Shown here: positions 13,371 through 35,978 of the stretch, one piece after another
Layout of the letters: each line of letters starts with the position of its first letter
Position numbering within the stretch: position 1 is the first letter of the stretch
NCBI GenBank assembly: GCA_025060615.1
Contig: JANXBS010000001.1
Span: forward strand, 95,577 to 159,576
DNA from: Anaerolineae bacterium
Lineage (GTDB): Bacteria; Chloroflexota; Anaerolineae; DUEN01
Reading direction: 5' to 3'
DNA length: 64,000 nucleotides
Program-made: the position numbers and the translations under genes
Notes under the pieces: generated by a model
Seen by the model: the letters and a program-made list of their open reading frames with translations, nothing else
Database searches by the model: none
Told to the model about the DNA's origin: nothing

Positions 13371-13395
13371 GAAAAGTGGGGGCTGCCCACTTTTC
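13371..13395 (-). terminator. Terminator-like hairpin in the nusA leader
   Basis: GAAAAGTGGG and CCCACTTTTC form a perfect 10-bp stem with a 5-base loop. On the minus strand the 3' arm ends in TTTTC followed by TT, giving a U-rich end. It lies about 20 bases after the predicted start of transcription and 53 bases before the nusA start, so it may be an attenuator. Confidence 0.6.
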
Positions 13396-13500: not shown

Positions 13501-13547
13501 CGGACATGACTTGGTAGAAAGCAATGAGGGGGAGGAAGCGTCTCCTC

Positions 13548-14078
13548 ATGCGCATTCGTCCTGCCGATCTCCATGACCTTAATGCCTGTTTTGCTCTCGA
13601 TGGCTCTTATGAGACCGATCACGTCTGGCAGATGGAGTATCGGGAGGAGGAGTCGGCCATCGCCGTACAATTTCGTTGGGTGCGTTTGCCCCGGACAGTG
13701 ACTGTGGCCTATCCGCCACGCGGCGAAAGCTTGTTGGCTCATTGGGAGCGCGGCGAGTGCGTGTATGTAGCAGCGGAACGGCGCGAGGTCAAAGGGTACA
13801 TCGAGGTTATCGCTCACCCGGACCAGGGGCTGGCGTGGGTCGAAAACCTGGTGGTCGACCGGGTCTACCGTCGGCAGGGGCTGGGGACCTCCTTGGTGGC
13901 GGCGGCAATCCAATGGGCTCAGATGCGCAACCTGGAGCGCCTGATGATTCCCATCCAGAGCAAGAATTACCCGGCCACCCGTTTCTGTCGAAAGCTGGGT
14001 TTTGAGTTCTGCGGCTTCAACGATCGCTACTTCGCTAATCGAGATATCGCTCTGTTCTTCAGCCGTACTCTGGTCTAA
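13548..14078 (+). CDS. GNAT family N-acetyltransferase
   Basis: The protein (176 residues from the chosen ATG) begins MRIRPADLHDLNACFAL, a typical GNAT start. It carries the acetyl-CoA-binding motif NLVVDRVYRRQGLGTSLV (about 102-119) and the C-terminal ATRFCRKLGFE motif. It should transfer an acetyl group to an amine; the substrate is not evident. The start at 13548 is favoured by GGGGAGGA about 11 bases upstream; an ATG at 13524 lies before that site. It is transcribed divergently from nusA. Confidence 0.85.
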   Translation: MRIRPADLHDLNACFALDGSYETDHVWQMEYREEESAIAVQFRWVRLPRTVTVAYPPRGESLLAHWERGECVYVAAERREVKGYIEVIAHPDQGLAWVENLVVDRVYRRQGLGTSLVAAAIQWAQMRNLERLMIPIQSKNYPATRFCRKLGFEFCGFNDRYFANRDIALFFSRTLV

Positions 14079-14120: not shown

Positions 14121-16136
14121 GTGCGATCACTGACCATGTCTCCATCGTTAGGAATCGCTTGGATCGATATTCTCTCCTTTGCCGATCTGATCCTAGCTTC
14201 GGCGAACCTGGTCTTCACCTTCTCGCTTTTGCTCTATTTGCTGGTTTACAACTTTCGCAACAGCGTGGCGCGGGCCTTCAGCGCCTTGCTGGCTTGCGTG
14301 GCCGTCGTCTACGCCTGTGATGTGGTGTTGCCGCGGGTTGAGACGTTGCAGGCGGCCGTGCAGTGGCTGCGTTTCCAATGGCTGGGGATCTCCTTCGTGC
14401 CGGCAGCTTACTTGCATTTCTCAGATGCGCTGCTGCGCACCACCAATCTGTGGTCGAATCGCCGCCGCTGGCTGGTGCGATGGAGCTATGTGCTCAGTGC
14501 CGTGCTTTGCGCGCTGGCCTTCTTCACCGACTGGGTGGTACGGGATGGGATCTTCGCTCCACCCATCACTCATTTGGAGCCCGGACCACTCTTCCGCGGC
14601 TTCACGGTATATTTTGTATTGACCGTCCTCTTCGGTGCATACAACATCCAACGCGCTCGCGCGCGCTGTCTGACGCCCGCTTCGCGACGGCGCATGACCT
14701 ATCTAGCGGTCGCGTTTTTGGCCCCGGCATTGGGGGTTTTCCCTTATCTGCTCCTGTCCAGCGTGCCGAAACCTGTGCCGTCTGGCATTGTGCTCTCCTT
14801 GAGCTTGGCTGGGAACATGGGCGTCCTGCTCATGCTCGTGGTGATGGCGTACACCGTGGCGTATTACGGCGCGCTAACCCCCGATCGGATCGTCAAACAC
14901 CGGCTGATCCACTATCTGCTGCGTGGGCCGGTGGTGGGCTCGGCTGTGATTGCGGCAATGCTGCTCATTCCCAAGGTCGAAGCCATCCTGGGCTTGCCCC
15001 GTGACACGGTCGTGGTCTTCGCGGCGATGATTCTGGTGGTGGTTGGTGAGCTATTGGTCAATGTGAGCAAGCCCTTCATTGACCGGATTATCTATTGGCA
15101 GGATGCGGAGGAGGTAGAGCTGATCCAGGAACTGGACCGGCGGCTGTTCACGTCGAATGACCTCCGCCAGTTCATGGAGAACGTGTTGATTGCGATCTGT
15201 GAGCTCTTACGGGTGTCTTCTGGCTTTGTGGCAGTCGTGCGCGATCAGGAGCTATATCTCGAGGCGACGTGTGGAACGATTAGTCGTGCGCCCGAAGTGT
15301 TAACGGAACGAGACTGGGTAGATGTGCTGCGGGCGCTTAGCCATCCGGACCCCAACGGCGCCAACAAAGACCGCCGTCTCCGGTGTGTGAGCCGCGGCGG
15401 GTACTGGGTGTGGCCGCTGTGGTCCAGCCAGGGCAAGGCCTTGCGCGGCTTGCTAGCGGTACAAGCGAGGACTGAGGAGCCCTTGCTTACCGAGCAGGAA
15501 GGCGCCGCGATCGCAACGCTGCTACGGCGTGCGGAGACCGCGCTGGAGGACCGCCATCTCCAACAGGCCGTGTTCATTGCGTTGCAACGCATGATGCCTG
15601 AACTAGAGCGCATCCAAGCCTGGCGGGAAGCGATCCCATATGCCGGCAGCAGCGTGCCTACTGAGGAGGAGGAGCCGCTGATAGACGTCGATGAGCTCCA
15701 GCAATGGGTGAAAGATGCGCTCAGCCATTACTGGGGGGGCCCCAAGCTGACGCACAGCCCCCTATTGAGGCTACGCGTCGTCAATCATGCCCTAGAGCAG
15801 GAGGGGGGGAACCCCGCGCGCGCGTTACGCTCTGTGTTGAACCAGGCGATTGAGCGGCTGCGCCCAGCTGGCCAGCGCCATATGACCGCTTCCGAGTGGC
15901 TGCTGTACAACATCCTAGACCTCAAGTTTATCCAGGGAAAGCGGGTGCGTGAGGTAGCACAACGCCTAGCGATGAGCGAATCTGACCTATATCGCAAACA
16001 ACGTGTGGCTATCGCAGAAGTGGCTAGGATCTTGGCTGAGATGGAAGCACGCGAGCTTGGGCTTTCGTATGGAAACTTACAAACGTTTGACAAAGAGTCT
16101 GCCGCTGCCTATAATGGAATTGGCGAATCGAGCTGA
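14121..16136 (+). CDS. Membrane protein: 7TM sensor region, GAF-like domain, HTH-like C-terminal domain
   Basis: The 671-residue protein starts with about seven or eight hydrophobic segments (residues 20-310) resembling the 7TM region of some histidine kinases. A GAF-like domain follows (about 345-465, including FMENVLIAICELLRVSSGFV). No HisKA or HATPase domain is present. Residues about 524-646 hold a helical domain with a helix-turn-helix-like segment (REVAQRLAMSESDLYRKQRV). The same domain, with HSPLL, NPA.AL and EVA..LA.S in common, begins the response regulator at 29497. The arrangement suggests a membrane-bound sensor that may act directly on DNA, which is inference. The GTG start has TGAGG eight bases upstream; an ATG at 14136 lacks a site. 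Confidence 0.72.
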   Translation: MRSLTMSPSLGIAWIDILSFADLILASANLVFTFSLLLYLLVYNFRNSVARAFSALLACVAVVYACDVVLPRVETLQAAVQWLRFQWLGISFVPAAYLHFSDALLRTTNLWSNRRRWLVRWSYVLSAVLCALAFFTDWVVRDGIFAPPITHLEPGPLFRGFTVYFVLTVLFGAYNIQRARARCLTPASRRRMTYLAVAFLAPALGVFPYLLLSSVPKPVPSGIVLSLSLAGNMGVLLMLVVMAYTVAYYGALTPDRIVKHRLIHYLLRGPVVGSAVIAAMLLIPKVEAILGLPRDTVVVFAAMILVVVGELLVNVSKPFIDRIIYWQDAEEVELIQELDRRLFTSNDLRQFMENVLIAICELLRVSSGFVAVVRDQELYLEATCGTISRAPEVLTERDWVDVLRALSHPDPNGANKDRRLRCVSRGGYWVWPLWSSQGKALRGLLAVQARTEEPLLTEQEGAAIATLLRRAETALEDRHLQQAVFIALQRMMPELERIQAWREAIPYAGSSVPTEEEEPLIDVDELQQWVKDALSHYWGGPKLTHSPLLRLRVVNHALEQEGGNPARALRSVLNQAIERLRPAGQRHMTASEWLLYNILDLKFIQGKRVREVAQRLAMSESDLYRKQRVAIAEVARILAEMEARELGLSYGNLQTFDKESAAAYNGIGESS

Positions 16137-16329: not shown

Positions 16330-17403
16330 ATGAACGAGGGATGGCATGACAATGCTGAAGCGATGAGAGATCTGGAAGAGGGGTATTGGCGGTCTCTCTT
16401 GGCCGATGGCGAGATCGCCTCATCATCGAGGAGAGGCTCAGACGGCCCCTGGGCAAAGAAGTTCGAAGGTCGGGAGCGCTACGTGGATGGGGGCCAGACC
16501 GACACTCACTCAGAGGACTGGGATGCGGCTGAGCGAGCCCGCACGTGCATGGAGGTGCTAAACCTACCCATCGTTGGTTATAACCGGGGAGGATTGTTGG
16601 TGCAGTTCAAACGGCTATGCGGCTTTGTACCGGCTTCTCATCTAGTGGACCTGCCGCGGTTGCCTGATCCCGAGGAACGCCGGCGGGCGTTAGCACAACG
16701 GGTTGGACAAACCTTAAAGGTGTGCATCATCGAAGTAGATCGAACTCAGGGACGGCTGGTTATGTCCCAACGAGCCATCCACGAAGGACAGCGGGGCCAG
16801 GAGCTTTGGCGATGTTTGAAGGCCGGAGAGATTCGCCGCGGCCGAGTCACGAACCTGCGGCCCTTTGGCGCGTTTGTCGATTTGGGCGGCGTTGAGGGGC
16901 TGCTTCACGTCTCCGAACTCTCGTGGGGGCGAGTGGAGCATCCCAGCGAGGTCGTGCATCCGGGAGACGAAATCGACGTATACGTGATGAGCGTGGATCC
17001 CACTCAGCGTAGGATCGCGTTGAGCCTCAAGCGATTACTCCCTGACCCCTGGGCGACGGTGCAGGAGCGGTATCAGGTGGGGCAGATCGTCACTGGAGTA
17101 GTAACGAATGTGGTCAGCTTTGGCGCGTTTGTCCGCGTGGAAGAGGGGTTAGAGGGTCTCGTCCACATCTCCGAGCTGGCCGAAGGCCAGTTCCTGCACC
17201 CGCGCAACGTGGTCCAGGAGGGCGATGTAGTACGGGCGCGCATCCTCAATATTGACCCGAGCAACCGTCGCATGGGGCTGAGCCTGCGACGGATTGTCAT
17301 GCCGCCGCAGACGGTTGAAACGTCATCTGCACGCCGCATGTCCTCATCAGAGGGGAAATCGGCCGGCCAGGAACCCATCGGCGTCCGTGACGGTGAACGT
17401 TGA
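16330..17403 (+). CDS. S1 RNA-binding repeat protein (ribosomal protein S1-like)
   Basis: From the ATG at 16330 the protein has 357 residues with three S1 domains at about 75-147, 165-235 and 249-321. The last two have the classic pattern (GRVTNLRPFGAFVDL, LLHVSELSWG and GVVTNVVSFGAFVRV, LVHISELAEG). The first resembles the second S1 repeat of ribosomal S1 (IVGYNRGGLLV, GFVPASHL). The first 70 residues are not recognisable. It may be the organism's S1 protein or an S1-like RNA-binding factor. The start is chosen for GGGAGAGGA just upstream; the frame stays open to an ATG at 16198. It overlaps a possible TTG start of ftsK. Confidence 0.82.
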   Translation: MNEGWHDNAEAMRDLEEGYWRSLLADGEIASSSRRGSDGPWAKKFEGRERYVDGGQTDTHSEDWDAAERARTCMEVLNLPIVGYNRGGLLVQFKRLCGFVPASHLVDLPRLPDPEERRRALAQRVGQTLKVCIIEVDRTQGRLVMSQRAIHEGQRGQELWRCLKAGEIRRGRVTNLRPFGAFVDLGGVEGLLHVSELSWGRVEHPSEVVHPGDEIDVYVMSVDPTQRRIALSLKRLLPDPWATVQERYQVGQIVTGVVTNVVSFGAFVRVEEGLEGLVHISELAEGQFLHPRNVVQEGDVVRARILNIDPSNRRMGLSLRRIVMPPQTVETSSARRMSSSEGKSAGQEPIGVRDGER

Positions 17404-17429
17404 TAGGGCTTGTGAGGTTATGGGGGGAC

Positions 17430-19688
17430 ATGGCTAAGCGTCACGGGGGACGTCGGACCACAAGCCGTAGCCGGTCGCAAGCCGCTCAGGACAGCCGGTG
17501 GTGGCGGCGCTTGCCTGTGTGGAGCTGGAAGGGGCCAGGTCAACCGGAGATGGTGGGCCTGGCCCTCCTTGTGTTCGGAGCATGGGCAGGTGTTGCGCTG
17601 ATCTGGGACCTCCCTGGTCGCCTTTTGCTCCGTCGGCTTTGTGGGTGGGGGGCTTATCCGTTGGCCATTGCTCTCATGGCAGGTGGCCTTCTTTTGTTCT
17701 TCCGCAGAGAGGCTCGCCAGCGCTGGCGATGGGAATTGCTGGTGGGGCTGGAGCTGGCTTGGCTAGGCTCGTTGACGTTGACACAATTGATCAGCCCTGG
17801 CGACAACCCCCTGGAGGAGACGCAGCGCGCGGCCAGTAGTGGCCTGGTCGGATGGGCGCTGGGCGGCTTGTTGGGGCAGACCTTTGGCCAGCCAGGCGCC
17901 TGGGCGATCGCGCTAGCTGTGACGCTGTTCGGGCTATGGCTTATCTGGTGTTTCCTGCCATGGCCGGTGACAGCACCGAGGATCACCCATGCATTGGCTT
18001 CCTTACGCCAAACCTGGGAGGTGGTCCTCGCGCGCGTTCAGATGGCCTGGGCTCCGCCCCTGGCCGACGAGGGTGAGCTGAAGGAGGGAGTGGACGCCGC
18101 TAAAGAGCCATTGGAGGACGAGTTAGCTGTGCCGTTGTCGCTGCCAGAGTCGTCGTGGTATCCTGCTTCGCGTAAGGCCAGAACTCATCCACCGGCCCGC
18201 GCCCGGTCGGCAAAGCCGCTATCACGGCCTGAGTCACTCCCTCCGCTGGATCTGCTCGTGCCGGATGAGGGTACGGAAGTCAGCGAGGTAGTTGCACGGG
18301 ACAAGGCTAATCTAATCGAGCGCACGCTTGCTAGCTTTGGCGTCCCCGCCCGGGTGGTCGCCATTCACATCGGGCCTACGGTAACGCAGTTCGGCGTCGA
18401 GCCGCTGTACATCGAGCGTCAAGGCCTGCAGCGAAAGGTACGCGTCAGCCGTATTCAGGCGCTGTCTAACGATTTGGCTCTGGCCCTGGCCGCGCCCTCA
18501 ATTCGCATCGAGGCGCCGGTGCCGGGCCGGCCATACGTCGGGATCGAGGTGCCTAACGCGCAGACGGCGCTGGTGAACCTGCGCGGCGTGTTGGAATCGC
18601 CCGAGTTCCAGCGGTTACGCTCGCCGCTGGCTATCGCCCTGGGCAGAGACGTCTCCGGTGCTCCGGTGGTGGCAGACCTGGCGGGCATGCCTCATTTGCT
18701 GATCGCCGGAGCGACTGGATCGGGGAAATCGGTCTGTGTAAACGCCATCATCACCAGCCTGTTGCTCAATAACGGCCCGGACCGGCTGCGCCTGCTGATG
18801 ATTGACCCGAAGATGGTGGAGCTGGTGGGGTATAACGGCATCCCGCATTTGCTGGGGCCCGTAGTGACCGATCTCAAACAGGTGGTGGGGGCGCTGGTGT
18901 GGATGACACTGCAAATGGAAGAGCGATACCGGCGGTTCAATGCCGCAGGTGTGCGCAACCTGGAGGCCTATAACCGCAAGATGGCAAAGCGAGCAGGGGA
19001 AGATGGGCCGTTGCCTTACATCGTAGTAGTCATTGATGAGCTGGCGGACCTCATGATGACGGCGCCGGAAGAGGTGGAACGGCACATCTGCCGGCTAGCC
19101 CAGATGGCGCGCGCCACAGGTATCCACCTGGTGATCGCCACCCAGCGTCCGAGCGTGGACGTGATCACGGGGTTGATCAAGGCCAACTTCCCGGCGCGTA
19201 TTGCTTTTGCAGTGGCCTCGGGGGTCGATTCCCGGGTGATCTTGGATCAACCGGGAGCCGAAAAGCTGCTAGGGCGTGGGGATATGCTCTTTATGGCACC
19301 CCAGTCAAGCAAGTTACAACGTATTCAGGGGTGCTTCGTATCCGATCGAGAGATCCATGCGGTGGTGGATTTCTGGCGCCAAGCCGATCGGGGAAAGTCA
19401 TCGGTTTCCGAAGTAGTCGCCCCATGGGCTGGGCTGCTGGACGAGTTAGATGATAGGGACGATCTAATCGAGCAAGCCCTGCGCGAGCTACGAGGGGTAA
19501 GCTATACGTCGGCCTCGATGTTACAACGGCGGCTGCGCATCGGCTATCCGCGAGCGGCCCGGCTGATCGAACAGTTAGAGGAGATGGGGATAGTGGGGCC
19601 AGATGAGGGGGTAGGACGCCCTAGGCGAGTGCTGCTCTCCAGTTCTCCTCGCCGAAGCGAGGAGGACGACTCGCTGTTAGAAGGATGA
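17430..19688 (+). CDS. ftsK: FtsK/SpoIIIE family DNA translocase
   Basis: This is an ATP-driven motor that moves chromosomal DNA through the division septum. The N-terminal region has a basic start and four membrane segments (about 45-185), followed by a charged linker. The motor has Walker A GATGSGKSVCVN (about residue 426), Walker B IVVVIDELADLMM and ATQRPSVDVITGLIKANFPA. A C-terminal winged-helix gamma domain (SYTSASMLQRRLRIGYPRAA) should read oriented DNA sequences. The ATG at 17430 is chosen; a TTG at 17400 overlapping the S1 stop would add ten residues. Confidence 0.95.
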   Translation: MAKRHGGRRTTSRSRSQAAQDSRWWRRLPVWSWKGPGQPEMVGLALLVFGAWAGVALIWDLPGRLLLRRLCGWGAYPLAIALMAGGLLLFFRREARQRWRWELLVGLELAWLGSLTLTQLISPGDNPLEETQRAASSGLVGWALGGLLGQTFGQPGAWAIALAVTLFGLWLIWCFLPWPVTAPRITHALASLRQTWEVVLARVQMAWAPPLADEGELKEGVDAAKEPLEDELAVPLSLPESSWYPASRKARTHPPARARSAKPLSRPESLPPLDLLVPDEGTEVSEVVARDKANLIERTLASFGVPARVVAIHIGPTVTQFGVEPLYIERQGLQRKVRVSRIQALSNDLALALAAPSIRIEAPVPGRPYVGIEVPNAQTALVNLRGVLESPEFQRLRSPLAIALGRDVSGAPVVADLAGMPHLLIAGATGSGKSVCVNAIITSLLLNNGPDRLRLLMIDPKMVELVGYNGIPHLLGPVVTDLKQVVGALVWMTLQMEERYRRFNAAGVRNLEAYNRKMAKRAGEDGPLPYIVVVIDELADLMMTAPEEVERHICRLAQMARATGIHLVIATQRPSVDVITGLIKANFPARIAFAVASGVDSRVILDQPGAEKLLGRGDMLFMAPQSSKLQRIQGCFVSDREIHAVVDFWRQADRGKSSVSEVVAPWAGLLDELDDRDDLIEQALRELRGVSYTSASMLQRRLRIGYPRAARLIEQLEEMGIVGPDEGVGRPRRVLLSSSPRRSEEDDSLLEG

Positions 19689-29496: not shown

Positions 29497-30750
29497 ATGG
29501 TAGGACGTGAAGAAGACATGACCGGCGAGGTGGACCAGGCGTTTGTAGAGGAGCTACGGCAGGCGTTGCAGGGGCTCTATGATCCGATGGAGTTGCGACA
29601 CAGCCCGCTTTTGGCGCGCTTCAAGTTGGAGCGCCAGCCCAACCCTGCGCTAGCCCTACAAGAGATGCTGATTGAGGCCATCCATGCTCTGAAGCCTGCT
29701 GCCTCCGTGCCTCCGCATACCGCCGCGCAACGCCTCTACCGCATCTTGGTGTATCGCTACGTGGAGCAGTCTTCTCAAAAGGAAGTCGCCAACGACCTGG
29801 CGCTCAGCATTCGGCAACTGCGTCGGCTAGAGAACGAAGCAATCGCCCTACTGGCCGATAGCCTGGCGCAGCGCTATGGGCTTCCTTTGGCTATTGAACA
29901 AGATATAACCAATGGCCAGGGCCTTGGGCAGGAATCGTCCCTTATCACTGACCGCAGGAGAGAGTTCGATTGGCTACGCAAGTCGCTGCCGATTGAAGCC
30001 GCCGATACGGAGCCATTGGTGCAGAGCGTACTGCGTACAGCTGAACCAGTACTGAATGCCTTAGGCGTGAGCGTCAAAGTGCGCGCGCCGGCCCATCTGC
30101 CTCCCGTTGCCTGTCAGGTCACCACGTTCCGCCAGGCGCTACTGAACCTAGTCCTTGCGATTGGCCGTACAGTTCCCTCTGGCCGTGTCGAAATAGACCT
30201 GCGTGCAGTTCGTGAACAGGTGGAGATTGCTATTCGACCGGTGGCATTGAAACTGGCTTTAGCGATAAACGAGATGCATCTCGAGAGTATCGAAATAGCA
30301 CGCCAGCTGGTGGAATTGTCTAGCGGCACTATGACCGTACAAGCGGACCCCGATATGCCGCTGGCCGTCACGCTAAGCCTGCGGTCAGCCACACAGCGGA
30401 TAGTGCTGGTGATTGACGACAATGCTGATGCATTGCAGCTGGCCGCGCGCTTTCTGACCGGGAGCTGCTACAAATTTGTCGGCAGTCAGGATCCTGAACA
30501 AGGTTTAGCACTAGCGATCAGCATGATACCCTGCGCCATTGTGCTGGATATCATGTTGCCAGGGGTAGACGGATGGGAGCTACTCGGTCGCCTGCGCACT
30601 CATCCTGCCACCGCTCACATTCCGATCATCGTTGCCACCATCCTCCCCCAAGAGCAGTTGGCTTTAGCGTTGGGAGCTGCGGCGTTCTTGCGCAAGCCAT
30701 TCAATCGCGAAACGCTGCTGGCGACATTGGCAAAGCTAACGCAGGCTTAG
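29497..30750 (+). CDS. Response regulator with N-terminal HTH-like and degenerate ATPase-like domains
   Basis: The 417-residue protein has three parts. Residues about 8-130 are a helical domain (LRHSPLLARFKL, NPALALQEML, KEVANDLALSIRQLRRLENEA) matching the C-terminal domain of the membrane protein at 14121. Residues about 150-295 look like a worn HATPase_c fold: an N-box-like RQALLNLVLAIGRTV and IARQLVELSSGTM, but no glycine-rich ATP lid. Residues 302-417 are a receiver with DDN, the phospho-acceptor Asp in LDIMLPG and Lys in LRKPF. It may be the output of the convergent hybrid kinase. An ATG at 29518 is an alternative start. Confidence 0.8.
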   Translation: MVGREEDMTGEVDQAFVEELRQALQGLYDPMELRHSPLLARFKLERQPNPALALQEMLIEAIHALKPAASVPPHTAAQRLYRILVYRYVEQSSQKEVANDLALSIRQLRRLENEAIALLADSLAQRYGLPLAIEQDITNGQGLGQESSLITDRRREFDWLRKSLPIEAADTEPLVQSVLRTAEPVLNALGVSVKVRAPAHLPPVACQVTTFRQALLNLVLAIGRTVPSGRVEIDLRAVREQVEIAIRPVALKLALAINEMHLESIEIARQLVELSSGTMTVQADPDMPLAVTLSLRSATQRIVLVIDDNADALQLAARFLTGSCYKFVGSQDPEQGLALAISMIPCAIVLDIMLPGVDGWELLGRLRTHPATAHIPIIVATILPQEQLALALGAAAFLRKPFNRETLLATLAKLTQA

Positions 30751-33005
30751 CGCCCATCTTTGTCCTTCACTGATTGGCTATTGGGCAGGGGCGCCAGCAC
30801 TTCCAATAACGCCTTGATGCATGTCAGCAATTGCTGCGCCGATAGGCCACCCCCACGCGTAACCAGAAGAGAATTGCTGGCTATCGGCTGGCCCAGTGCA
30901 TCCCGAGCGGAGATCAAGATCACTGGAATGTCACGCAGTTCGGGCTCCTGACTTTTGGCTGCCAGCAACTGAAAACCGTCCATCTCAGGCATAACTAAGT
31001 CGAGCAGGAGCACGTCGGGCCGCTCCTGGCGCAGGATATCCCAGGCCTGCTTGCCGTCGCTGGCCCGCAGCACGCGATAGCCTCGGCCAGAGGACGCCAG
31101 CATCCGTCGAAACAGCTGCAATGCATCTGGTTCATCGTCCGCAATAAGGATCGTTTTGATTGGCCGTTCCAGGCGATCCAGTGCAGCTAGCAGCGTTGAG
31201 GCATTGATTGGCTTGACCAGGTAGTCCGCCACGCCAAGCGCACCGATCGCCTTCTCTAGCCCCGGCAGGGCACAGAAGATGGCAGGCATGCCGAATGGCA
31301 ACGCGCCCGAAGCTAGCAAACGTTCCAGTGCTTCGCCAGCGCGAATGTCGTTGACTAACAATGCGGCTGCTGGCATCTGAGACAGTCCGTTCAGTGCTGC
31401 CTCAAGGGAAGGGAAGACAACGACCTCGGCATTTTCAGCGTACCGAGTCAGCATTCGCTGAAGCACGTTGCCTTGCTCCACCACCACAAGCTGGGGCTGG
31501 ACGGGGTTGGGACGGAAGTTTGGCGGTCGCGTGCGCGGCTCATAAGGCACGTAAGGGTTGAGCCAGCGGACTGCGCTGCTAGATGAGGGCACGGGCGGCG
31601 CAATTGGCAGACGGAAGAAAAAGGTGGTGCCGCGACCTAGCTCGCTTTCGAACCACATCTTGCCGTCGTGTAGCTCCACAAAACTCTTGCTGATGCTTAG
31701 TCCCAGGCCGGTACCGCCATAGCGCCGACGGATCGAGCTGTCGGTCTGGTAAAAAGGCTGGAAGAGGTGCTCTTGGTCGGCCGGCGCAATGCCTGGCCCC
31801 GTGTCGGCCACGCTGACGAGGACATCTTCCCCCGCCTGCCAGGCTCGTACCTGCACGCCACCCCGCTCAGTGAAACGGCCGGCGTTGCTCAGCAGGTTCA
31901 ACACCACCTCGCGAATGCGCGTTGGGTCGCAGAACACCAGCGGCAGGTCGTCGGCGACTTCAATGGTCAGCGACAGCCCTTTGGACGCGTAGAGCGGCCG
32001 CACGGCTACGGCCGCTGCCTCGATGACTTCGTCCAGCGCCACCCACTCCTTGGTCAACGCCATCTGCCCCGCGTCAATCTGGCTGAGGTCAAGTACGTCG
32101 TCAATCAACTTGGATAGGTGCAAGCTGTTGCGCAGAATAACCTTGAGGTCCGCCAGGAGCGCAGGCGGCAGCGGCTGGCCGTAGGTCTGTGGTGACTGAG
32201 TGATCATCTCGCTGAAGCCGATGATCATGTTGAGCGGCGTGCGCAGCTCGTGGCTGACGTTAGCGACGAACCGTTCCTTGGCGCGGCGTTCCTCCTCAGC
32301 GGCCTGGCGCATAGCCTGCGCCAGCTGATTCAACCGCCTAAGTTGCGCGTTGGCAGCCGTCAAATCCTCGAGAGCCTGCTTCAACTGGACTTGGGTTTCG
32401 CGCGCTTGTTCCAGGGCGACCCGGCTGCTTTCGTAGCCGGACCATGCCCATCGCATCGCCGTCGTTAGCGGCTCCAATGTCAACCAGATCAGGCCAACGA
32501 CACCCCATATACCCAGCAGTGTGACGGTGCGGAGGATGCCGTCGGCAGGCAGCAGTCTTTCAGGGGCCCACCACAGCAACAGGGAACAGGCCACCCCCAT
32601 CCCCAGACCGGCGGTTCGAGTGATGGCTGCTGTCGTCAGACCCACAGGCAGCGCCAACAGCGGCAGGGCCGAAGGCGCGCCGCCCCAGGTGACGAGGGCA
32701 AGAACGATGGCCATGCTGCTGAGAATGAGCAGCCAAGCCGACGCCGGATAGCTGCGCCGACGCAACGACCATGCCAGTGGCCCGATGGCGATTAACACGA
32801 GCAGCGTTAAGTTCTGCGCCAGCCCTTGGATAGGTTGACCTGCCACCAGGATGGCCGCGCCCGCCACGTATAAGCCGATTAGCGCCAATGTGATGGTGTT
32901 GCTTTGCACCTCCGTCAACAACGCCGCCAGTTCTTCTGACCAGGTTGGCGCGCCGCAAGCGCTTACATCAGATGGCTGCACCGTAAAAGCTTCGCCAGTA
33001 GCCAT
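30747..33005 (-). CDS. Membrane hybrid histidine kinase with two receiver domains
   Basis: The 752-residue protein has about six membrane segments (40-190), a coiled coil, a HisKA domain with NVSHELRTPLNMIIGFSEM (His is the phosphorylation site) and a HATPase domain with the N box (VVLNLLSNAGRF), DTGPGIAP and GGTGLGLSISK. Two receivers follow. The first is degenerate: EQGN and LLVNDIRA lack the acidic pocket. The second is intact (ADDEPD, LLLDLVMPEMDG) but the usual Lys is replaced near VTRGGGLS. It ends tail to tail with the response regulator, sharing four bases. The ligand is unknown. AGGAGGG precedes the ATG. Confidence 0.88.
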   Translation of the reverse strand: MATGEAFTVQPSDVSACGAPTWSEELAALLTEVQSNTITLALIGLYVAGAAILVAGQPIQGLAQNLTLLVLIAIGPLAWSLRRRSYPASAWLLILSSMAIVLALVTWGGAPSALPLLALPVGLTTAAITRTAGLGMGVACSLLLWWAPERLLPADGILRTVTLLGIWGVVGLIWLTLEPLTTAMRWAWSGYESSRVALEQARETQVQLKQALEDLTAANAQLRRLNQLAQAMRQAAEEERRAKERFVANVSHELRTPLNMIIGFSEMITQSPQTYGQPLPPALLADLKVILRNSLHLSKLIDDVLDLSQIDAGQMALTKEWVALDEVIEAAAVAVRPLYASKGLSLTIEVADDLPLVFCDPTRIREVVLNLLSNAGRFTERGGVQVRAWQAGEDVLVSVADTGPGIAPADQEHLFQPFYQTDSSIRRRYGGTGLGLSISKSFVELHDGKMWFESELGRGTTFFFRLPIAPPVPSSSSAVRWLNPYVPYEPRTRPPNFRPNPVQPQLVVVEQGNVLQRMLTRYAENAEVVVFPSLEAALNGLSQMPAAALLVNDIRAGEALERLLASGALPFGMPAIFCALPGLEKAIGALGVADYLVKPINASTLLAALDRLERPIKTILIADDEPDALQLFRRMLASSGRGYRVLRASDGKQAWDILRQERPDVLLLDLVMPEMDGFQLLAAKSQEPELRDIPVILISARDALGQPIASNSLLVTRGGGLSAQQLLTCIKALLEVLAPLPNSQSVKDKDGR

Positions 33006-33025
33006 AGGCGACCCTCCTGACCTCG

Positions 33026-33034
33026 ATTATGCCA
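33026..33034 (-). promoter_or_regulatory. Extended -10 promoter of the hybrid kinase
   Basis: On the minus strand TGG precedes CATAAT (33031-33026) about 21 bases before the ATG. No clear -35 box is seen. The leader would be very short. Confidence 0.35.
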
Positions 33035-33279
33035 CATGGAAGTATGGAAGGTGAAACCGTCGAGAAAAGCCACTCCCAAGGTGGCTACGCACAGAGACTC
33101 CGGCCTATTGCTTGCAATCGAAAGGAACAGATCACCGGGCGGGATCGGAAGTGAGACGCAGGATCTCTACTGCCCAAGCAGGGCCTGGCTGGCGAGTTAT
33201 TCAAGGTCTCCACAACTCCGGCTCATCAGAGATGCAGGGATTAACAGATAGCCCATAAGCATTTGGCCTGCAGGACAAG
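33035..33279. other. Non-coding spacer
   Basis: Together with flanking signals this makes a gap of some 340 bases between the hybrid kinase and the ABC binding protein. I see no gene or RNA feature in it. Confidence 0.4.
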
Positions 33280-33318
33280 AAAAGGGGCAGCCCCTTAGTT
33301 GTGAGGCAGCCCCTTCTC
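33280..33318 (-). terminator. Terminator of the AT-rich ABC transporter operon
   Basis: Two overlapping GGGGC/GCCCC inverted repeats can form either a compact hairpin (AAGGGGC/GCCCCTT) or a longer one. On the minus strand the 3' end reads GCCCCTTTTCTT, a U-rich tail. It lies 31 bases after the binding-protein stop. Confidence 0.65.
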
Positions 33319-33349
33319 GATTGCAATGTTCGATGCTTGCGGCAGAGGT

Positions 33350-34951
33350 CTACTGCTTCTTGGTCGCCTTCCAGGCAACATATTGCTGTTCGAGCTCGGC
33401 CTTGACCTTGTCAATGCCCGCAGCTTTCAGCTCATTAATGAACTTGGGCAGCTCGGTGGCGGGGTCAATGTAACCGTAGACCAGCGGCCACCAGTAGGTC
33501 TCGACGACCGCGTTGATAGCAGTCAGTTCGGCATCAACCGGGGTCTTATTGAAGCGGAAGCCCAAAGAAGGATGCGGGGCCGCATCCTTGGCGTATTCGA
33601 TCAGCAGGCGGTTCTTGTTGGGGTCTTCTATATTGGTGACGTATTGAATCTGGGTGTTGCCCCAAACCCAGGGGCCGGGGTGAGCCCTGTACCAGCTGTC
33701 GTCTATCAGCTTGACACGGCCATCGGCTTCGAGCTGCCAGTGCTTGCCTTCCGCGCCATACAAGCAGGTGTTGACCACCTTCGGGTCGCTGTGTAACAGA
33801 TTGATGAACTTCATCGCTTCGATTGGATGCTCAGAGAGCGCTGGGATACCCATCATCGAACCGCCGGTGTTGAACGTTGCGATAATCTTGGGTTGCCATT
33901 CGAGTTCGGCTACCCGCAGATCGGGGTTGCCGGAGGAGAGCATGATCTCCTGCGCCTTGATATTGTTGCCTTTTAGAGGTTGCGCCACCACGAAGAACTT
34001 GCCGGCGTTCATCAGCTTATCCGGCTCGTAGCCGGTCAGGGCAGCCTCTGGATGGACCCAGCCCTTATCGCGCCACTGGCGAATAAGGGTGACGTAGTCG
34101 CGGAACCATTCGCTCTCGACGACATTGTAAATAGTTTCGTCGAAATTGCCGCTCGCATCGCGATTGAGGATGTTCATCGTCAAAATGTTCTGCGGCACGC
34201 CGGCAGCAAAACTGGGCAGCCAGGGTGAGAAACCGGGCATGAAATTGACGAGGTACGGGTATTCGTCGGGACGAAGGGCTTTAGCCTTCTCCAGCCAGGG
34301 CTCGAAGTCACGCATAGACTTGATCTTGGCAGCTTCCTCTTTGGTGAAGCCGATCTTCTCGGCCACATCGAGGTTATAGATAAACCCGTCTGGCACAGAC
34401 AGCTCTTTGTTGACCGGGATGGCATAGTTGATGCCGTTGATCTGGCTGCCGGTGATGAAACCGGGATTGATGGTCGAGAGGATCCCTTGGCCATACTTCT
34501 CTATCAGATTGCCATATGGCCCGGTATCATCATTGAGAGGCAGGAGCAGCCCTTGAGCCACCAGCTCGTTATAGTACCACCAGTCGGCCGTGAAAATGAT
34601 ATCGATCTTCTCGCCGGCTTGGAGGCCCGTGATGGCTTTGGAGGCCCAGTCACCCCATCCGACAATATTGAAGCGGACATTAGCACAGATGAGCGGTTCG
34701 ATGTATTCATTGAGCGCGGCCTCCACCTCCGGGCGGACAGGGGTATCACCACTGCCAACCATGTACAAGTCCAGCGTGACGGGCGAAGTACAGGCCGGCC
34801 CTAGCGTAGCCGTCGGTTGGGTGGCAGTGGGCTGCACCGCCGCCTTTGTCGGAGCCGGTGGCGTAGTAAGCGGCTCAGGCGTTACCACCTGCGCACATGC
34901 CACCAGCAGGAAAGCCGTCAGCAGGAGTAGAGAAACGAAAGTTCTAAACAT
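33350..34951 (-). CDS. Extracellular solute-binding lipoprotein (LipO/LplA type) of a carbohydrate ABC importer
   Basis: The 533-residue protein has a lipoprotein signal with lipobox LVAC (Cys19), then a Thr/Pro linker and a family 1-type binding fold (LDLYMVGSGDTPVRPEVEAA, IIFTADWWYYNELVAQGLLL). The C-terminal part resembles the DUF3502 region of LipO-type proteins, which serve oligosaccharide importers with LplB/YtcP permeases. Both permeases lie directly upstream in the operon, so the binding protein is last rather than first. AAGGAGAAG precedes the ATG. Confidence 0.88.
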   Translation of the reverse strand: MFRTFVSLLLLTAFLLVACAQVVTPEPLTTPPAPTKAAVQPTATQPTATLGPACTSPVTLDLYMVGSGDTPVRPEVEAALNEYIEPLICANVRFNIVGWGDWASKAITGLQAGEKIDIIFTADWWYYNELVAQGLLLPLNDDTGPYGNLIEKYGQGILSTINPGFITGSQINGINYAIPVNKELSVPDGFIYNLDVAEKIGFTKEEAAKIKSMRDFEPWLEKAKALRPDEYPYLVNFMPGFSPWLPSFAAGVPQNILTMNILNRDASGNFDETIYNVVESEWFRDYVTLIRQWRDKGWVHPEAALTGYEPDKLMNAGKFFVVAQPLKGNNIKAQEIMLSSGNPDLRVAELEWQPKIIATFNTGGSMMGIPALSEHPIEAMKFINLLHSDPKVVNTCLYGAEGKHWQLEADGRVKLIDDSWYRAHPGPWVWGNTQIQYVTNIEDPNKNRLLIEYAKDAAPHPSLGFRFNKTPVDAELTAINAVVETYWWPLVYGYIDPATELPKFINELKAAGIDKVKAELEQQYVAWKATKKQ

Positions 34952-35006
34952 TGTTTTTCTTCTCCTTTCTTGGTTTTCGTTAGTGGTTATTCCTCATAAC
35001 CCACAA

Positions 35007-35978
35007 TTAGCCCTTGATAGCACCGATCGTCAGGCCCCGGACGAAAAAACGCTGAAAGAAAGGATAGGCCAGGATAATCGGCCCGATCGTCACAACTGCC
35101 ATGGCCATGCGAAACGTCTGGGAAGGCAATTCAGCCAGGCTCACCACTCCTTGCATCCGCGAAGCGTTTTCCAACAAGAAGCGGATGTTATTCAGGGTGG
35201 AGTAGATAGTGTACTGCAAGTTGTAAAGCTCCACATTGTCCACGAGCAAGAGAACATTGAAGAAGTTATTCCAGATGCCAATGGCGCTGAACAGAGCCAC
35301 CGTTGCCAGGCCGGGAACCGAGAGCGGCACGACGACCTGGAGCAGGATGCGCCACTCGTTGGCGCCATCAATGCGAGCCGCCTCGATCAATTCCTCGGGG
35401 ACATGGGTCTTGATGTAGGTTCGCAGGACGAACACCCAAAATGGGCTAAAGGAAGAAGGCAGGAAAAGGGCCCACATGGTGTTGTGAATTTGTAGAATTT
35501 GCCGCATCACCATGTAATAGGAGACCAGACCACCGTTGAATAACATGGTAAAGAAGGCAAAGAACTTGAAGAAGGTGGAAAACCGAAAGTTGGACCTGGT
35601 TAAAGGATAAGCATACAGCGTAATCAGGATAACTGACAGGATGGTTCCTAGCAGTGTGGAAATAATCGTATTCCTATAGGCTGTAATGATGATAGAACCT
35701 TCACGAAACAGATAGGTGTAGGCGTTGAACGAGAACTCCCTCGGCCACAAGCGGTAACCGTTTTCCGTCAAGGAGGCTTCTGATGTAATCGAAGTGATGA
35801 TAATGATATAAAATGGCGCGAGTGTGAGAATGACGAGAATTACCATCAAAATATTAAGAACAAGATTCGTCGAGGGGGAAATAGCAAGCATATCCCGAGC
35901 TGGCTTGGATTTTGCCCTCGAGAAGGAAATAGGTAATACTTTGCGGAAGGGTTTAGATTTCACCAGAGAAGACCTCAT
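35007..35978 (-). CDS. Carbohydrate ABC transporter permease (YtcP/MalG type)
   Basis: The 323-residue membrane protein has six predicted segments and the ABC permease EAA loop (EELIEAARIDGANEWRILLQ). The ending YPFFQRFFVRGLTIGAIKG is typical of MalG-type permeases. The sequence is visibly AT-richer than most of the window. It lies between the second permease and the binding protein; no ATPase gene is present, so a shared MsmX-type ATPase is likely. Confidence 0.9.
   Translation of the reverse strand: MRSSLVKSKPFRKVLPISFSRAKSKPARDMLAISPSTNLVLNILMVILVILTLAPFYIIIITSITSEASLTENGYRLWPREFSFNAYTYLFREGSIIITAYRNTIISTLLGTILSVILITLYAYPLTRSNFRFSTFFKFFAFFTMLFNGGLVSYYMVMRQILQIHNTMWALFLPSSFSPFWVFVLRTYIKTHVPEELIEAARIDGANEWRILLQVVVPLSVPGLATVALFSAIGIWNNFFNVLLLVDNVELYNLQYTIYSTLNNIRFLLENASRMQGVVSLAELPSQTFRMAMAVVTIGPIILAYPFFQRFFVRGLTIGAIKG

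Follow-up and report, generated by a model that had tools for sequence, protein, structure and literature searches.

The stretch analysed here, 64,000 nucleotides from an Anaerolineae bacterium of the phylum Chloroflexota (GenBank assembly GCA_025060615.1, contig JANXBS010000001.1, positions 95,577 to 159,576; hereafter the window), carries an open reading frame (ORF) that starts with GTG, is uninterrupted by stops and encodes a protein of 671 residues (Table 1). The ATG at 14136 is considered an alternative start because the alignment of its relatives begins at about residue 6. The original prediction for this gene was a membrane-bound one-component regulator, in which a helix-turn-helix (HTH)-like domain stands where a histidine kinase has its catalytic core. 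In order to weigh this proposal, we computed the domain order and predicted topology of the protein, the absence of kinase domains, the homology of its output domain to receiver proteins, its conservation and its gene neighbourhoods. Relatives were sought within the phylum Chloroflexota by a profile search of contigs with alignment A1, from which the best 80 of 573 relatives were retained (a single-protein query had given 11 stretches and no relative), so that the neighbourhood and alignment counts given below lean to close relatives.

Table 1. Features of the locus and of the encoded protein, in window coordinates (TM, transmembrane helices; REC, receiver domain).
Feature	Position	Strand	Basis
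Whole gene, 671 residues: 9TM, GAF, long helix, sigma4-like HTH	14121..16136	+	ORF, Pfam, model
7TM core, residues 9-250, HisKA_7TM, GPCR-like fold, N-terminus outside (predicted)	14145..14870	+	Pfam, model, charges
Two further membrane helices, residues 255-282 and 294-324	14883..15092	+	model, topology prediction
GAF-like domain, residues 345-457	15153..15491	+	orthologue profiles, model
Long helix, residues 458-504, linking GAF and output domain; putative role in signalling or dimerisation	15492..15632	+	model
C-terminal output domain, residues 522-645, homologous to N-terminal domain of 11 receiver-bearing paralogues	15684..16055	+	profile comparison, model
Sigma-region-4-like tri-helical HTH, residues 590-645	15888..16055	+	profiles, fold, conservation
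GNAT acetyltransferase gene, directly upstream	13524..14078	+	Pfam, neighbourhood comparison
S1-domain protein gene, downstream	16330..17403	+	Pfam, neighbourhood comparison
FtsK/SpoIIIE DNA translocase gene, downstream	17400..19688	+	Pfam, neighbourhood comparison
Paralogue: N-terminal sigma4-like domain and C-terminal receiver	29497..30750	+	profile search, Pfam
HisKA-HATPase-REC kinase, convergent with the preceding receiver gene	30747..33005	-	domain scan
SBP_bac_1 solute-binding protein	33350..34951	-	domain scan

Sensor region, kinase absence and distribution

The resemblance of the N-terminus to the 7TM region of histidine kinases, anticipated by the original prediction, was borne out by a Pfam scan in which HisKA_7TM (PF16927) matches residues 31-227 over the family cut-off (E = 7.1e-14), and the same family is found in 62 of the 67 aligned orthologues. 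Regarding the catalytic core, the scan returned no HisKA, HATPase_c or Response_reg match in the 671-residue protein at E ≤ 5, and none of the 17 families matched by any of the 67 orthologues (E ≤ 0.1) is a kinase, ATPase or receiver family. As a positive control, the sole other HisKA_7TM protein of the genome gives both HisKA and HATPase_c in the identical scan. The H-box, G1 and G2 patterns, present in this control kinase, occur in 0 of 67 orthologues; the N-box and receiver motif patterns missed the control and were not used. An intact catalytic kinase domain, which had been named as grounds for abandoning the prediction, was sought and not found: of the features of a HisKA_7TM kinase, the protein has the 7TM N-terminal region and lacks the HisKA and HATPase catalytic core.

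The domain search proposed together with the prediction thus detects HisKA_7TM in the protein itself and the GAF profile PF01590 in 34 of the 67 orthologues. These orthologue matches and the modelled fold identify the GAF-like domain expected after the membrane region. Indeed, an AlphaFold model built on the 67-row alignment (predicted local distance difference test, pLDDT, 87.1; predicted template modelling score, pTM, 0.74) presents, in this order, nine long membrane helices, a GAF-like alpha/beta fold, a helix, a linker modelled with low confidence and a C-terminal domain made up of helices, and the GAF-like fold at about residues 345-457 matches 3e0y in Foldseek (E = 8.5e-3). This domain order, together with a separate model of the C-terminal domain, places the HTH-like domain where the kinase core would be, as had been proposed. 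The count of seven membrane helices needs to be amended: it holds for the 7TM core and not for the protein, for which nine helices in total are predicted. Averaged over the 67 sequences, the odd loops contain 19.6 lysines and arginines, and the even loops, with the N-terminus counted among them, 3.7. Because positive charges concentrate in the odd loops, the positive-inside rule predicts an N-terminus outside and a cytoplasmic C-terminal output domain; an extracellular C-terminus, which would have contradicted the original prediction, is not borne out by this count.

The predicted fold of the 7TM core resembles that of G-protein-coupled receptors (GPCRs). With model residues 10-268, the top Foldseek match, and the sole one at E ≤ 0.001, is 8zrt (E = 8.3e-4). 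In a second structural comparison, ADGRL3 (8jmt) aligns over 225 residues at 4.1 Å with a Z score of 18.5, a value that has no reference from other seven-helix models, and all 50 rows shown are by title GPCR entries or complexes, bar one titled androgen membrane receptor. What the core appears to have in common with GPCRs is the modelled fold and a predicted N-out arrangement of seven helices; it differs from them by an identity of about 10%, with no sequence homology shown, and by the absence of a G protein, and the likeness derives from a predicted model. The 7TM core of a histidine-kinase-type sensor (14145-14870) is in this way GPCR-like in prediction.

The gene is near class-wide. Among sampled Anaerolineae genomes, 383 of 396 match at E ≤ 1e-40 (230 of 234 among the better genomes). 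In a draw across the phylum, 71 of 301 genomes match at E ≤ 1e-12 and 230 do not; the matches comprise 38 of the same class (its own genome included) and 33 of other classes, of which three match by the output domain alone and 30 are long matches. At most three candidates were scored per genome and most rows have one match, some two (those in G283, at least, being parts of a single reading frame), so strict single copy is not claimed. This distribution bears directly on the idea of a decayed histidine kinase, a chance fusion or an assembly artefact devoid of any regulatory role. Apart from the 7TM core being a histidine-kinase module by its Pfam name, little would recommend it: the architecture recurs in nearly all class genomes and in the 30 long matches of other classes, and the region that replaces the kinase is the most conserved part of the protein, with a mean column identity over the 67 sequences of 0.75 for the HTH, compared to 0.59 for the 7TM region and 0.46 for the GAF. 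Judged from the sequences, chance origin of the architecture is excluded because of its conservation in the class, and decay or artefact, effectively refuted on the same grounds, retains a negligible probability.

The output domain and its relatives

Modelled alone, the C-terminal 135 residues reach a pLDDT of 90.3. Among known families, the sigma70-ECF profile TIGR02937 matches 60 of the 67 members weakly (best E = 3.2e-5), and Sigma70_r4_2 and DUF1492 are found in 24 and 25 of the 67 orthologues, respectively (E ≤ 0.1). The copy in the window scores 22.6 bits against TIGR02937, below the cut-off of 42.9 for a curated sigma-70 region 4 assignment, and matches none of the Pfam sigma families. 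A search for solved structures by sequence alone with the output-domain profile gave a best E value of 0.33. In the fold comparison of the output-domain model, sigma region 4, which binds the -35 element, accounts for many of the top rows, including M. tuberculosis sigma L (6dv9; Z 7.6, 73 residues, 3.1 Å), BldN (6dxo; Z 7.3, 59 residues, 1.4 Å) and DNA-bound region 4 of E. coli sigma E (2h27; Z 6.5), and the DNA-binding antiterminator Q21 of a phage is matched at Z 7.6 over 98 residues. Within the HTH, S619, E620, Y624, R625, K626 and Q627 are invariant in 67/67 sequences and R628 is conserved at 0.99; residues 624 to 628 belong to a putative recognition helix that is basic and nearly invariant.

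The nearest relatives of this domain lie in the same genome. A search with the output-domain profile yielded 12 places, the gene itself and 11 others, all of which bear a C-terminal receiver domain. Their N-terminal domain aligns with the output domain over 117 columns (hhalign, probability 99.7%, E = 2e-26), and one of the 11 exceeds the Pfam Sigma70_r4 cut-off (29.7 versus 24.1 bits). These proteins, of 391-435 residues from the chosen starts, combine the sigma4-like domain, a middle region and the receiver; in four of them, L184 (E = 0.023), L185, L190 and L193, the middle is HATPase-like below threshold. They thus share a homologous output domain with the 671-residue protein and differ from it in that theirs is N-terminal, soluble and accompanied by a receiver and a neighbouring kinase, whereas its own is C-terminal, membrane-bound and without receiver. 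A HisKA-HATPase-REC kinase adjoins, or lies one gene off, in 10 of the 11 cases; the eleventh, L192, is near a contig end. DNA-binding response regulators often adjoin genes for ABC solute-binding proteins, and such a gene adjoins six of the 11 receiver genes, a seventh, in the window, having one past its kinase. Since a homologous domain occurs in 11 receiver proteins, ten of them near histidine kinases, the output domain is probably a DNA-binding output module. The region 29497-35978 of the window is itself a two-component and ABC-transporter locus, whose layout is partly repeated at the ten other receiver proteins of the genome. In other genomes the output domain is also borne by AAA/STAND or TPR(-like) proteins, and a 572-residue protein (L149:166-1881, genome G005) with a weak GAF-like region and the output domain is perhaps another one-component architecture.

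The same data invite two other readings of the domain. PhyR has a sigma-like N-terminal part and a C-terminal receiver, an order also displayed by the 11 paralogues, and the domain could thus be a sigma mimic, or a partner of RNA polymerase or of an anti-sigma factor, that binds protein (by PhyR-like partner switching or at the beta flap) rather than DNA. The sigma4-like fold agrees with this, as do PhyR-NepR complexes further down among the fold matches (2lfw, Z 4.8; 3t0y, Z 4.7). However, the basic and nearly invariant recognition helix suits a DNA contact, the occurrence of the domain on AAA/STAND-TPR-like proteins is an architecture of DNA-binding regulators, and no sigma2-like part is predicted in the output-domain model; we regard this reading as rather unlikely. 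A PhyR-type mimic consists of sigma2-like and sigma4-like parts and a receiver and binds NepR; the 671-residue protein has the sigma4-like fold and no receiver. Alternatively, the output domain might pair with those of the receiver proteins and modulate their promoters, having none of its own. A common output domain and 11 candidate partners in one genome speak for such joint action, but class genomes exist that have the gene and zero or one further copy of the domain at E ≤ 1e-4 (one match in all in G028, G037 and G055; two in G005, G018 and G046), and receiver partners are therefore not required there. Joint action with two-component systems is accordingly very improbable.

Gene neighbourhoods

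Neighbourhoods were compared in 81 places, namely 80 loci of relatives and the window. Of the 62 places with enough flank, 42 have an ftsK gene on the same strand no further than three called genes downstream; in 21 of 81 it comes directly after the gene, in 18 of 81 an S1 gene comes first and ftsK second, and many of the direct pairs have gaps of -29 to 66 bases. On the other side, the gene immediately upstream encodes a GNAT protein in 32 of 80 places, cdsA, as the end of an rpsB-tsf-pyrH-frr-uppS-cdsA run, in 19, and in 17, which are Caldilineaceae-type loci, a protein of a class of about 269 residues (e.g., L104:7068-7874), one copy of which was scanned and has no Pfam match. In no place (0/81) do ftsK and cdsA occur together. 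Among 19 extra loci, the class subset (n = 8) has ftsK in four and cdsA in one. Part of the class thus shows a strong ftsK/cdsA linkage, which is no rule for the phylum.

Proximity to ftsK raises the question of whether the protein is a chromosome tether, whose HTH would bind specific sites and keep them at the membrane during segregation or division together with FtsK, in the manner of nucleoid-anchoring proteins. The frequency of the downstream ftsK and its tight spacing, the presence of the gene throughout the class, and a long helix and GAF that suit a linker are all compatible with a tether. Nevertheless, the output domain is common to receiver proteins beside kinases and sugar transporters, which is a gene-regulation setting, a tether would not need an elaborate 7TM and GAF input, and about a quarter of the places have the cdsA context instead. 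A tether is hence unlikely.

As for the DNA upstream, a dyad at 13372-13394 (perfect 9+9 arms, 5-base loop) lies in the divergent nusA/GNAT spacer and is identical in two of three same-family relatives, with no second match in the genome. It was considered as an operator of the 671-residue protein and rejected, as its position tracks nusA and not GNAT; it is probably a nusA leader or terminator element. Rfam gave no match anywhere in the window, and no conserved site was found directly before the gene when this region was compared across relatives.

A probable membrane-embedded one-component regulator

Taken together, we favor the view, with a probability of about 0.72, that the 671-residue protein is a membrane-embedded one-component transcription regulator. 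The lack of a kinase domain, the predicted C-in topology and an HTH shared with response-regulator-like proteins all support the central claim of the original prediction; the nine membrane helices, the class-wide conservation, the ftsK or cdsA neighbourhoods and the GPCR-like fold go beyond it. In the best reading, the 7TM/GAF input takes the place of kinase and phosphorelay and is joined directly to the output domain that paralogues in this genome employ downstream of kinases. In this reading, DNA binding, dimerisation, signal and regulon are inferred. An extracellular, lipid or membrane signal would act on the GPCR-like 7TM core, and the resulting change would pass through the two further membrane helices (8-9) to the cytoplasmic GAF, at which a small molecule may provide another input. 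From the GAF, the helix of about 47 residues would relay the change to paired C-terminal sigma-region-4-like HTH domains, which would then bind or release promoter DNA beside the membrane, with no histidine, ATPase or receiver step. Among its likely targets would be its own operon or surrounding genes (ftsK, or the run from rpsB to cdsA), and envelope or division state would therefore be the favoured signal.

Several observations weigh against this interpretation. At the level of the domains, the GAF has no Pfam match in the protein's own copy and the sigma matches of the orthologues remain under the curated cut-offs. The top Foldseek match of the output domain, 3hug, has an E value of 0.093 and none reaches E ≤ 0.001, and the best Z score is 7.6, with 0 of 1000 chains at Z ≥ 8, a level possible for a common arrangement. 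Regarding the genomic context, four of the 81 places have enough flank and neither ftsK nor cdsA, the other-class loci among the extra ones (n = 11) show cdsA beside the gene once and ftsK three genes on once, and no operator was found in the upstream comparisons.

The nearest known proteins are the transmembrane transcription regulators (TTRs), such as CadC and ToxR (census of Demey et al., 2023; PMC10269533), which combine a DNA-binding-type domain with membrane helices in a single chain and have no phosphorelay. The protein likewise has membrane helices in the chain of its output domain, no phosphorelay domains and an output domain predicted to be cytoplasmic; as for a recognised DNA-binding domain, it has a sigma4-like HTH identified by weak profiles and fold, under curated cut-offs in the orthologues, and one receiver paralogue exceeds the cut-off of Sigma70_r4. 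Unlike TTRs, it has nine helices, a 7TM core and a GAF, an output domain under Pfam cut-offs in its orthologues and class-wide conservation. The census relied on Pfam DNA-binding models, counted about 56% of the proteins as single-pass, and reported that hybrid TTRs lack conservation at the level of genus, class or phylum (PMC10269533). Because their output domain scores below the Pfam cut-offs, the orthologues would probably escape such a census, and the variant is probably new, overlooked for the same reason. The architecture was not found in the open-access literature searched, a search that left subscription journals mostly outside, and passages from papers on PSP, ToxR-type and archaeal systems do not describe it.

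Two kinases offer further points of comparison. HisKA_7TM kinases share the 7TM N-terminus, followed by cytoplasmic PAS/GAF in the 900-residue G000:C7 (L183), and differ from the 671-residue protein by having HisKA and HATPase where it has an HTH and by lacking its two extra membrane helices. LuxN, a nine-helix quorum-sensing kinase, has the same number of membrane helices and gives a weak NCBIfam match (E = 0.075), which is far under the cut-off (11.1 versus 1550 bits); unlike the 671-residue protein, it is a kinase.

The membrane-bound transcription factors known so far mostly cross the membrane once and differ between close relatives, whereas this one is polytopic. With its receptor-like 7TM core and its occurrence in nearly every sampled genome of the class, it lends itself well to studying how a membrane-held receptor locates a promoter and controls it. 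The output domain also ties it to two-component regulators beside sugar transporters, and knowing the DNA site of one member would aid work on the others. Should a solved structure confirm the GPCR-like fold, this would be relevant to how seven-helix receptors arose. More tentatively, and as a possibility that we consider less than probable, a receptor with a GPCR fold and a DNA-binding domain of its own, inherited throughout the class, may read the state of the envelope and set the expression of division and envelope genes (ftsK, uppS-cdsA) from the membrane, through an output-domain family that is widely used by Chloroflexota and hardly seen by curated profiles. If true, such an envelope-reading regulator would be a core one-component switch from envelope to genome.
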